Source of the DNA: Methanoculleus bourgensis MS2
Lineage (GTDB): Archaea > Halobacteriota > Methanomicrobia > Methanomicrobiales > Methanoculleaceae
Length of the DNA stretch: 64,000 nt
Assembly: GCF_000304355.2 (NCBI RefSeq)
Contig: NC_018227.2
Coordinates: 124,001 to 188,000 of the forward strand
Direction of reading: 5' to 3'
In this document: piece after piece, positions 3,731-61,511 of the stretch
How the letters are laid out: every line of letters starts with the position of its first letter
How positions within the stretch are numbered: position 1 is the stretch's first letter
Notes under the pieces: generated by a model
Seen by the model: the letters and a program-made list of their open reading frames with translations, nothing else
Database searches by the model: none
What the model was told of the DNA's origin: nothing
Program-made: the position numbers and the translations under genes

Positions 3731-3869
3731 GGATATCACTCGAAAGGGTGTTGTCCGGCAAAAACGAAGAGGGTTTGTGTACAGGCAGACTTGTGGGAGA
3801 CGAGGCGCCGTTGGGTGCGAACTGATGAAGCCTCGCGCGAAGAAGGGTCATCCGGCTTCTCATACCCCT

Positions 3870-4140
3870 CGTTGAATCGGAGTGCCGGGGCAAGCTGACA
3901 AGATCTCACGCGAATGCCGCGAAGTTCGGTTGCTGGGCGGTATCGTCCCCTTCGCGCTCTTCGCGCCTTCGCGTGAGATTTCATCACGGTGGATAGAGCC
4001 TCGCGCGTTGCCCGCGAAGCCGCGAAATCCAGTTTCCGGGCGCTGAGAACTCACATTGAGGCGTCACGTGAGGCCGCATCATTGTCGGCTGTCAAAATTA
4101 GCGAAGTACTGGTGCCGAAGGCTCATGGCGCGCTTACCGC
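3870..4140. repeat. Dispersed CGCGAAG palindromic repeat, copy 1 (gap 3731-4161)
   Basis: No convincing gene in this 430-bp gap. A perfect 12-bp inverted repeat, ATCTCACGCGAA (3903-3914) and TTCGCGTGAGAT (3968-3979), encloses the core GTTCGGTTGCTGGGCGGTAT that recurs near 45.29, 61.14 and 61.35 kb. The left flank GGCAAGCTGACAAG is also shared with the copy at 23.85 kb. Further fragments (CGCGAAGCCGCGAAA) follow to about 4030. TTAGCGAAGTACTG at about 4097 recurs near 29.71 kb. Confidence 0.8.
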
Positions 4141-23719: not shown

Positions 23720-23837
23720 GGAGCGGTCTTCGGGGGGCTGTTCTTCTACGCTTCCCCCTCCCCCCCCGGGTTGTTATACACCCAACTTTCCGCAGTAAGA
23801 GTTCTGGCCCGGCATTTTTCTCACATTCCCCTCGCTA

Positions 23838-24110
23838 AATCAGAGTACCCCGGCAAGCTGACAAGGTCTCACGCGAAGAACGCGAAGGACTGTCTTTCAT
23901 CCCCCGTCCCCCTTCGCGCGCTTCGCGTCTTCGCGTGCGGCTGGCGATCACGCCCACGCACCTGTGACAGACGGTGAACCGGGCCACTCGTTCATTATTC
24001 CAGGACGGGATCGTCTTACTGCGGAAGGTGGGATACACTGTTCACGCGAAGGAGAGCGTAGCAATTCCACGTCTTTCGCGGCTTCGCGGCCTTCGCGTGA
24101 GTGAACCCGT
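23838..24110. repeat. Dispersed CGCGAAG palindromic repeat, copies 2-3 (gap 23720-24155)
   Basis: This 430-bp gap between convergent genes holds no gene. It has the shared flank GGCAAGCTGACAAGGTCTCACGCGAAG (in pieces: GGCAAGCTGACAAG, then CTCACGCGAAG at 23868-23878), a right arm CTTCGCGTGCGGCTGGCGATC near 23930, and a second palindrome from CACGCGAAGG near 24038 to CCTTCGCGTGAG near 24100. TGGCGATCACGCCCACGCACC near 23941 is the same trailer seen at 43.87, 54.6 and 55.1 kb. Confidence 0.8.
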
Positions 24111-29531: not shown

Positions 29532-29579
29532 GGCCGGGCTACCGCCGGTTGCACGCGCCCTTGCAGGGCTCTACTGGAT

Positions 29580-29730
29580 CGTTGCATCTCATATTTCCAC
29601 ACAATTGTTGCGTGAGTTTTCGGTGTGGGATAATGATAGGGTCTCACGCGAAGGACGCGAAACCTTGACGGGAAGTCGATGGTTTGACTTTCGGCTGGCT
29701 CCCTCAAAGATGTTAGCGAAGTACTGAGCC
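29580..29730. repeat. Dispersed repeat fragment, copy 4 (gap 29532-29941)
   Basis: GCATCTCATATTTCCACACAATTGTTGCGTGAG near 29583-29615 (as GCATCTCATATTTCC, then GTTGCGTGAG) is the 5' end of the dispersed unit, seen also at 54.67 and, reversed, at 61.42 kb. A half palindrome TCTCACGCGAAGGACGCG is at about 29641. TTAGCGAAGTACTG near 29712 repeats the motif at about 4097. The rest (29730-29895) has no gene and no recognised RNA. Confidence 0.6.
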
Positions 29731-40309: not shown

Positions 40310-40740
40310 AAAGGCTGCTTTGTGCGGCCTTCACGCAGAAGTGCGCGAAGGGCGCAGAGTCCGGGGAACATTAACCGCCTCCCCTTCGCGTGCTTCGCGA
40401 CCTTCTGCGAGCGACTGGCGATCCGGCCCACACCTGCAAAAGAAGACGGCTCGATGCACTACTGCCAAGTCAACGACAAATTGTCGCAATAGTGCATCGT
40501 GTCACGTTATTTTGATGCGTGAGATGCAACGCCGATGACCTCATGCGGAAGCACGCGAAGTTCGGTATAATCCCCTGCAACGCCTCATCAAGTCTTCGCG
40601 CGAGAGCGCGAGCGGCTCGATCCCCCCTGTGCTGAAAACTCACGCGAAGTCGCGAAGGCCGCGAAGATTGGTCTTGGGTACCTGCAACGCCCCTTCGCGG
40701 CCTTCGCGACTTCGCGTCTTCGCGTGAGGCAGTGCGGTAA
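40310..40740. repeat. Dispersed CGCGAAG palindromic repeat, copies 5-7 (gap 40178-41322)
   Basis: Three palindromes: from about 40330 (CTTCACGCAGAAG to CTTCTGCGAGCGACTGGCGATCC, split by CCTCCCCTTCGCG), a partial one near 40555, and from CTCACGCGAAG near 40643 to CTTCGCGTGAG near 40729 with the second core (GGGTACCTGCAACGCCCC). A nested inverted repeat CGATGCACTACTG/CAATAGTGCATCG with inner CGACAA-A-TTGTCG lies at 40452-40499. The rest of the 1.1-kb gap, including an AT-rich part at 41090-41240, has no gene I can support. Confidence 0.75.
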
Positions 40741-41322
40741 CAGAGAGCACCAACGTCTCATGCGGGAGGTCGCCCCTGCCCGACGTTTGATTGTTGACCC
40801 GGCACTAATGTGTTTTCACCGATGCAGCCTCTCGCGAGGCCTCAGGCGGATCTTGTGGTGGAAAAGAATGAGGGAGGGTCTGGTTTCACGGAATGAGGTG
40901 GGGCGCCACACCCGGGAATATCATGGCCCGGTTGTAATCCGCTGATCGCTGAACACTGGTAGGGAGCGCCGCGTGCCGCGGACCGCCCCCGACCGAACCC
41001 TTGTATGATGACTGGTGGGCGTAGTTGTTTGGTGGTAGGTTGTGATGATTGCTGACTGGGATTGAATGATTGATGATCGCTGGGTGTGGTCTTACCCCGA
41101 TCCAGTTTCTATAATGTCGATTATATATTAGTTTCCAATAAATTTCAGGGCGTATATGTCGACCATAATATTAAAAGGGGCTTTATTATAATCCCTTTAA
41201 CCGCCATCTCCCTTCAAATCAGGGTGAATTTTAACCGCAAAAACTATATGCGGACCCCCATCCGGCGGGGTGCGGCGGAGAACCTCCCGGGCTCCGCGCT
41301 CCCCGCCGGGGGTCTTGGGGGA

Positions 41323-43499: not shown

Positions 43500-43930
43500 T
43501 ACTCTGGATGCCTCTACTAAGCCATTTCATCTTATTTTGCGGGTTTTGGTGCGGATCGCCAGTCGCTCGCGTGAGGCAATGTTACACATGAACACGACCT
43601 ATTCCCCGGGTGAGCCTGGGCAGTGGGACCGTGGCGGGTCTCCCCCCGCACAAGCCGGACCGGGGGCACAAACAGAGCCATGATCCCCCACTCGCCAAAT
43701 CAGGGCGGTTTTCATGGGAAATATTAGATGAAATGGTCCACTACTGTATCATTTCATCTAATATCGTCCATGCAATACCATCTCACGCGAAGGGCGCGAA
43801 GCCGCGAAGTTCGGTCGCTGGGCGGCAGAGTCCCCTTCGCGTTCTCATGCGTGGCTTTCCGCGCAAGACTGGCGATCACTCCCACGTTCAGATGAAACGC
43901 TCCACTACTTCATCGAGGCATCTAATTTTG
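43500..43930. repeat. Long dispersed repeat, copies 8-9 (gap 43344-44137)
   Basis: On the minus strand 43735-43520 reads CATTTCATCTAATATTTCCC...CGCAAAATAAGATGAAATG and aligns with 54892-55147. A perfect 15-bp inverted repeat, ATATTAGATGAAATG (43721-43735) and CATTTCATCTAATAT (43750-43764), marks the junction with a second unit on the plus strand, which holds a CGCGAAG palindrome (43781-43860) with the first core, then GACTGGCGATCACTCCCACG and AGATGAAACGCTCCACTACT. 43930-44137 has no other feature than a probable promoter. Confidence 0.8.
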
Positions 43931-45244: not shown

Positions 45245-45345
45245 CGCCCCATGAATTCTCTCGCGTTGAGCGCGAAGGACACGAAGTTCGGTTGCTGGGC
45301 GGTATCGTCCCCTTCGCGTTCTTCGCGCCTTCGCGTGCGGCTGCC
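45245..45345. repeat. Dispersed CGCGAAG palindromic repeat, copy 10 (gap 45151-45501)
   Basis: CTCGCGTTGAGCGCGAAGG, core GTTCGGTTGCTGGGCGGTAT and right arm CGCCTTCGCGTGCGG, nearly identical to the copy near 3.9 kb. To its left, GATAGCCACCACGG near 45186 resembles the interior of the repeat at 55.03 kb. To its right, AATGGTCCACTCATCTGAATTT (45383) is a junction fragment. No gene is seen in the gap. Confidence 0.75.
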
Positions 45346-54547: not shown

Positions 54548-55160
54548 GTACTGGCCCATTGCAGCTAAAATTTCACACCACTTCGCGAACTTCCGCGGCT
54601 TCGCGTGAGGTGGTGATCACTTCCACGCACCAGCCTCCTCAAAAATAAGATGAAATAATCACTACTGGTCCATTGCATCTAATATTTCCACGCGATTGTC
54701 GCCACACCCTTCGCGGCTTCGCGCGAGAGACTGCAGCGCCTCTGTATACCGCAACCTCACGCGAAGGACGCGAAGCCGCGAAGGGGACTATATCGTCCAA
54801 CAACTCCACTTCGCGTCCTTCGCGCTCAACGCGGGAGGTGGCGATCTGCACCCAGGACCGCAAGATAAGATGAAATGGCCTACTACTAGAGCATTTCATC
54901 TAAAATTTCCCATGAAAACCGCCCCGATATGGTGAGTGGGAGACCCCCTGCTCTGGTGCATCGTGCCCGGGGTCCGGCTTGTGGGGGGAGGGGGCTCGCC
55001 CCCTCCCCTGCCCCCACCCCCCGGGTGATAGCCACCACGGTCCACTGCTCGGGCTCGCCCGGGGAATGGGTCGTGTTCATGGGTACCATCGCCTCACGCG
55101 AGGGGCTGGCGATCCGCATCAGGACCCGCAAAATAAGGTGAAATGCTCCACTACAGGGTG
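54548..55160. repeat. Tandem array of three dispersed-repeat units (gap 54512-55263)
   Basis: Unit 1 (about 54548-54655) ends in AAAAATAAGATGAAAT, then the junction TCACTACTGGTCC. Unit 2 (about 54670-54877) starts GCATCTAATATTTCCACGCG, contains palindromic arms around CGAAGCCGCGAAGG and ends TGGCGATCTGCACCC...AGATAAGATGAAATG. The junction GCCTACTACTAGAG (54878-54891) lies between a perfect 10-bp inverted repeat (AGATGAAATG 54868-54877, CATTTCATCT 54892-54901). Unit 3 runs 54892-55147 and aligns with the minus strand at 43520-43735, with about 40 extra GC-rich bases. No gene is supported. Confidence 0.85.
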
Positions 55161-61064: not shown

Positions 61065-61440
61065 TAAATGGTAGTGGAGTATTTCACCTTATCTTGTGGG
61101 TCCCGGTGCAGATCGCCACCTCGCGCGAAGGACGCGGAGTTCGGTTGCCGGGCGGTATTGTCCCTTCGCGTCTTCGCGCCCTTTGCGTGAGGCTCTATTG
61201 TTATTCCCATCCACTAACTCACGCGAAGCCGCGAAGAGCGCGAAGATCTGTCCGGGTACCTGCAACACCCCTTCGCGTCTTCGTGTCCTTCGCGTGAGGC
61301 TCTATTGCCCCCAGCGCTGAAAACCCACGTGCTCTCGTGCGAAGGACGCGGAGTTCGGTTGCTGGACGGTATCGTCCCCTTCGCGCTCTCCCACGTGCGT
61401 TTGCGTGACGCAACAATCGCATGGAAATAGTAGATGCGAT
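61065..61440. repeat. Dispersed repeat unit, minus orientation, three palindromes (gap 61037-61511)
   Basis: Read on the minus strand, the unit begins GCATCTACTATTTCCATGCGATTGTTGCGTC (in pieces, near 61430) and ends TGGCGATCTGCACCGGGACCC...AGATAAGGTGAAAT with the junction CTCCACTACC near 61070. Three CGCGAAG palindromes lie inside: 61118-61190 (core 1), 61212-61300 (core 2, GGGTACCTGCAACACCCC) and 61330-61412 (core 1). No gene is seen. Confidence 0.8.
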
Positions 61441-61511
61441 AGGTCCAGTCGTGCTCCTCTGACCGCCCGATAGTAAATCCTATCTCTCTATAGGCAGACC
61501 ATGTGTGTACT

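Follow-up and report, generated by a model that had tools for sequence, protein, structure and literature searches.

The window analyzed here comprises 64,000 nucleotides (G000:C1:124001-188000) of the single, 2,789,774-base contig of the source genome, and comparisons within the genus cover 35 Methanoculleus genomes. In a gap between two genes, at positions 54548-55154, lie three head-to-tail repeat units that we assign to one family, family A. All three have the 5' end, the TGGCGATC trailer and the ATAAGATGAAATG 3' end of the shared architecture described in the original prediction, and each is bounded, as had also been noted, by imperfect terminal inverted repeats (TIRs); CGCGAAG palindromes are found in units 1 and 2. 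Unit 1 (54552..54661, plus strand, 110 bp) has a short CGCGAAG palindrome between TIRs TGGCCCATTGCAGCTAA and AAATAAGATGAAATAATCA, and unit 2 (54666..54882, plus strand, 217 bp) contains CGCGAAG palindrome modules, including the one at 54756..54837, within a TIR pair with CTAC on both sides. Unit 3 (54887..55150, plus strand, 264 bp) belongs to a "270-bp" subfamily, is 96-97% identical to other genomic copies, and has a different, G/C-rich interior that replaces the long CGCGAAG palindrome. A second G/C-rich palindromic module of this subfamily, GGGGAGGGGGCTCGCCCCCTCCCC..CCACGGTCCACTG, is located at 54982-55053 and has matches in many congeners (query 980-1054). The units are separated by CTAC, read as a target duplication common to units 1 and 2 (54662..54665) and to units 2 and 3 (54883..54886). 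The outer right duplication is also CTAC (55151..55154), and the outer left tetramer GTAC (54548..54551) is, in its sequence, an imperfect partner of the CTAC at the remaining boundaries.

The original prediction had placed the same repeat family in eight gaps of the window, but these gaps do not all hold one family. At 43.5-43.9 kb, a minus-strand family A unit flanked by CTAC (43518..43740) is joined through CTAC to a plus-strand unit of the 177-bp subfamily (43745..43904), and at 61.07-61.45 kb, a minus-strand unit with palindrome modules (61075..61447) has the flanks GTAG and GTCG, the left end TAGTGGAGTATTTCACCTTAT, and a right end that is the reverse complement of TGGACCTATCGCATCTACTATTTCC. 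With the units at 54.5-55.15 kb and a plus-strand half unit at 29.57 kb (29575..29683), which has half a palindrome and only a left end (TACTGGATCGTTGCATCTCAT at 29572, without partner end), these are the family A loci of the window. The repeats at 40.46-40.81 kb (40459..40807) are ends of the sibling, IS630-type families D and B (TACTGCCAAGTCAACGACAAA at 40460, TAGTGCATCGTGTCACGTTATTTT at 40490, and a D end spanning 40787-40807), and the gaps at 3.9, 23.9, and 45.3 kb contain a palindrome module and no intact MITE. The first of these modules (3903..3977) is without family A ends, and the others (23868..23938 and 45269..45337) are without intact ones, with a possible degenerate right end near 23985. 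In the 3.9 and 23.9 kb gaps, the palindrome follows a further repeat of 67 nt (3858-3924 and 23821-23887; 82% identical), which lies outside family A.

Family A in the Source Genome and Beyond

The genome search that had been proposed found many further copies. The 3'-end motif ATAAGATGAAATG, with one mismatch allowed, has 140 genome sites, 71 and 69 by strand, and the 20-nt terminal pattern TAGTGGASCATTTCAYCTWA has 176; the reversed controls gave 0 in both searches, which excludes chance as the source of the repeat family. The TIRs, TGGASCATTTCAYCTWAT..ATAAGRTGAAATGSTCCA, are about 18-20 bp long and enclose 110-300 bp of non-coding DNA without a transposase gene, as expected of a short, TIR-bounded MITE. 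Pairing of inverted ends gave 108 elements (100 loci extracted from the genome), most of them 120-310 bp long and a few of the longest pairings being nested or composite. The modal size class of 176-177 bp accounts for 25 of the 108, and there are several size classes with exchangeable interiors. Using the 177-bp consensus, we found 42 genome matches at E ≤ 1e-6, of which six cover its full length at 100% identity, and this points to a recent spread. Together with the 176 terminal motifs, the six perfect copies give the high number of near-identical copies typical of MITEs.

The same ends number 0-4 in each of the 34 congeners; the amplification of family A is recent and species specific. Outside the genus, one complete element was found (G227, L176:1501-1675), beside nucleotide-sugar and methyltransferase-like genes, and its presence in another genus suggests horizontal transfer; the other Methanomicrobiales genomes searched contained no family A ends. 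A scan of 84,980 species genomes for the exact TIR pattern identified five loci only, and two of these, from Paracholeplasma and a Lachnospiraceae MAG, appear to be single ends matched by chance. The exact pattern was absent from IMG/VR, and the 177-bp consensus gave no match in PLSDB and INPHARED.

Target Duplication, Empty Site, and Tandem Arrays

The outermost bases of family A read NTAN|TGG...CCA|NTAN. Checking for target duplications, as had been proposed, we found the tetramers on the two sides to be identical in 59 of 93 elements, compared with 26.8 expected by re-pairing and with none of 5,000 shuffles reaching 59. In 29 elements free of neighbors, the element-side base of one end tracks the target-side base of the other end (Fisher P = 7e-4 at the fourth base and P = 5e-6 at the first), and this covariation in isolated elements indicates that the duplication is 4 bp and not TA alone. 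The targets are NTAN with the strongest preference for CTAG, followed by CTAC. The TA placed preferably within CTAG is as in an IS630-derived MITE; such an element would be expected to duplicate only the 2-bp TA, and family A duplicates 4 bp.

An empty site in relatives, also among the proposed checks, was identified at one site. A family A copy (L077:507-679, at about 1095306-1095478 of the source contig) interrupts a gene whose flanks, once joined, read in frame through ..WLDPRARYYTSVPVNPLYD.. (..ARYYTSVP..). The gene is unbroken in eight congeners, where the junction is CGCTACTACACGAGC or a close variant. Because of this copy, the claim that the repeats occur in no gene is valid within the window and fails genome-wide. 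At the window site itself, the same two genes are 752 bp apart here and 153 bp apart in a congener (G020), whose spacer is too diverged for the gap to serve as an exact empty site. In another genome (G006:C1), the gene to the left of the window site has two equal-score matches, 281531-282047 and 297251-297767, 15.7 kb apart. ORFs are disrupted at 18 of 74 junctions compared with 87 of 148 control positions, a measure that is noisy in GC-rich DNA and reveals no more than a preference for intergenic sites. Two insertions are at the CTAG in the center of a hairpin: one (L078:430-650) that splits a terminator-like GAATCCTGACCGA-CTAG-AAGTCGGTCATAATCC, and an IS630 copy (L205:1368-2609) with ATACGA-CTAG before and CTAG-TCGTAT after it.

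The joining of units in tandem through a conserved 14-nt junction had been held to be unlike simple insertions. We found that 83 of the 186 element ends border directly on another element's end, with a single tetramer common to both (52 of 92 for CTAG), and the 14-nt junction is the end of one element, the shared duplication, and the end of the next. CTAG is seen 11 times in the window, where trinucleotides predict 47 occurrences and base composition predicts 226, and one IS630 copy (L198) is positioned exactly at a CTAG between two family A ends. Each insertion duplicates its target at the edge of the element, and new copies would re-insert into the duplication flanking an older copy, producing modular tandem blocks. 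As CTAG is rare in the genome and each target is doubled upon insertion, later copies would often land beside older ones. Insertion into a duplicated CTAG or CTAC at the edge of an older copy yields a junction of the kind observed, and with this the objection from tandem joining falls.

The CGCGAAG Palindrome

The palindrome, originally seen as part of the family, turned out to be a separate repeat. The pattern CTCACGCGAAGN{1,3}CGCGAAG, which can match both arms and thus counts arms rather than modules, is found 292 times in the source genome and 163, 88, 87, 82, and 71 times in G001, G011, G025, G007, and G004, respectively, and none of these five congeners has more than one family A end. In most of the palindrome loci examined in congeners, none of the four families (A, B, C, and D) has an end within 260 bp. 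Being abundant in several Methanoculleus species without the MITE, the palindrome is a passenger, and since an entire subfamily does without its long form, it is not in the transposition signal. The module is abundant in some species of the genus and nearly absent in others.

The original prediction had left room for a structured-RNA family, and a structured RNA or a transcribed regulatory hairpin spread within 3' or 5' regions would be in line with the mostly intergenic location of the copies and with the strong hairpin, the 171-nt core giving -44 kcal/mol when folded as DNA (z = -5.2). Folding of this strength is, however, as for any long palindrome. Across 16 copies from the genus, each arm has three CGCGAAG 7-mers that hardly vary, while the loop is not conserved; the copies were partly picked by their conserved outer arms, which builds in some of the invariance there but not that of the inner 7-mers. 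Compensatory change was seen in 0 of 25 pairs in these palindromes, with a covariation term of +0.16. No Rfam family reaches its cut-off at the 54548-55154 repeats, and the interior is a different one in unit 3 and its subfamily. An RNA gene, moreover, would not predict target duplications or an empty site, and we consider an RNA origin very improbable.

A high-copy intergenic palindrome present in several species is also what REP/BIME-type repeats, spread by a Y1 (RAYT/IS200-like) transposase, would look like. The cognate enzyme (PF01797) is absent from the source genome and from the palindrome-rich G001, G002, G003, G004, G007, G011, G012, and G025, and most of its occurrences are in species that have few palindromes or none. 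As TIRs and a 4-bp duplication do not fit REP elements either, we give this origin hardly any credence. For the module itself, we tentatively suggest that the passenger rather than the MITE is the novelty: a genus-specific inverted array of three CGCGAAG 7-mers per arm, of invariant sequence, independent of its loop and without TIRs of its own, could be a DNA-protein binding array, would be maintained and spread in as many as hundreds of copies by a process not involving Y1, and would have been captured and further dispersed by IS630-type MITEs; this reading is doubtful.

Sibling Families and the Putative Mobilizing Transposase

Family A adjoins repeats of at least three sibling families, all starting with CTAGTG, and each of these, B, C, and D, matches the ends of real IS630-family transposons. 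Family B corresponds to the ends CTAGTGCTCGTTGTCACCTAAT of an IS630 transposon of the source genome (L199; 178 + 209 aa, at 1857422 of the contig), family D to the ends CTAGTGCACCGTCAACC and CTAGTGTTATGTCAACAA of two further loci (L197 and L198; 166 + 229 aa, at 570471 and 620646), and family C to the ends CTAGTGCATCGATTCCCAAT of an IS630 transposon in a congener (L205, in G033). The proteins of L198 and L199 are identified by Pfam and NCBIfam as DDE_3 and IS630 (PF13358/NF033545). In L197-L199, the transposase is divided between two overlapping ORFs. Counted by eye, about 21 of 25 positions agree between the B left end and family A.

The siblings share TIRs with autonomous IS630 elements, and no such element was found for family A. 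None of the three IS630 copies of the genome, and none of the IS630 loci examined in the 35 Methanoculleus genomes, has family A ends, so family A works like an IS630-derived MITE and is not a proven member of that group. A DUF1670 gene pair (L131:155-1836, G013:C509) is located directly beside a family A end, its first gene being a clear DUF1670 member; as a candidate mobilizer it was set aside, with a TIR on one side only.

IS5/IS427 and IS701 elements also use YTAR/CTAG-type targets. As the duplication is 4 bp long, a partner of this type, generating a 4-bp CTAG/YTAR duplication, remains a rival, and the likeness to IS630 ends would then reflect convergence on the same target. The 4-bp duplication suits IS5/IS427 or IS701 better than the TA of IS630 does, and the source genome contains six PF01609 (DDE_Tnp_1) matches and one PF13546 (IS701-type) match. 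An IS5-associated MITE, MITEPsy1, with a CTAG or YTAA duplication is known (PMC3189936). On the other hand, none of the PF01609 or PF13546 loci that we examined is bounded by family A ends, and three sibling families starting with CTAGTG match real IS630 ends. We regard a mobilizer from these other families as unlikely, and the siblings make mobilization in trans by an IS630-type transposase the likeliest source of family A.

Discussion

We explain the repeats as non-autonomous, IS630-type (Tc1/mariner-like) MITEs, a reading to which we assign a probability of about 0.82. Its two parts differ in strength: the status of family A as a MITE is well supported, and its IS630 type is probable. The mobile element without a transposase that was originally put forward is borne out by the TIRs, the 4-bp duplication, the empty site, the burst of near-identical copies, and the siblings with matching autonomous IS630 elements. 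An IS630-family transposase acting in trans would excise the unit at its TIRs and join it to CTAG-like sites. The enzyme may have come from an element bearing these same TIRs that was lost or escaped sampling, or resident IS630 copies may cross-recognize the TIRs; the CGCGAAG palindrome is an older, genus-wide repeat carried inside many units.

Family A adds a new family to a known kind of element, with more than 100 copies in one methanogen archaeon, and its growth is a recent MITE burst confined to that species. With the autonomous IS630 elements of the siblings at hand, it can be tested whether IS630 transposases cross-mobilize such elements in archaea. The arrays point to a simple rule by which a rare, preferred target is multiplied by the element itself, and the modular tandem blocks thus have an ordinary explanation. 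Our literature search found no paper on MITEs or REP palindromes of Methanoculleus; subscription papers may exist.

Among known systems, the CGCGAAG module resembles REP/BIME sequences as a high-copy intergenic palindrome but differs in its length of about 80 nt, its three invariant 7-mers per arm, and the lack of a Y1 transposase in rich carriers. BOX repeats have a modular interior inside a repeated shell. The same is true of BrickBuilt, a MITE with an internal minisatellite (PMC4596501). Unlike in these two, the interior module of family A also exists on its own, as a palindrome repeat found across the genus. For archaea, a review of prokaryotic MITEs (PMC10969869) lists elements from Sulfolobus, Halobacterium, and Haloquadratum, and the passages considered name no methanogen MITE and note an absence in one Methanobacterium; the listed elements are, like family A, non-autonomous and bounded by TIRs, and family A sits in Methanomicrobiales. 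IS630 is described as preferring TA within CTAG (Tenzen and Ohtsubo 1991, as cited in PMC2170065), and classic IS630 elements duplicate TA only (PMC2170065). Family A shares the preference, and the resident IS630 elements have CTAGTG ends and sit at CTAG; it differs from the IS630 family in having no transposase and in duplicating 4 bp rather than TA.

The closest known case is RUP of Streptococcus pneumoniae, for which mobilization by IS630-Spn1 has been proposed (PMC2229807). Family A differs from RUP in its archaeal host, its 4-bp NTAN target with a CTAG preference, its arrays with shared duplications, its several size classes, and in that its exact autonomous partner was not found. Like family A, RUP is a non-coding element, of roughly 100 bp and in about 100 highly similar copies, with TIRs matching those of an IS630 element, a target containing TA, and mobilization in trans as the inferred mode of spread (PMC2229807).
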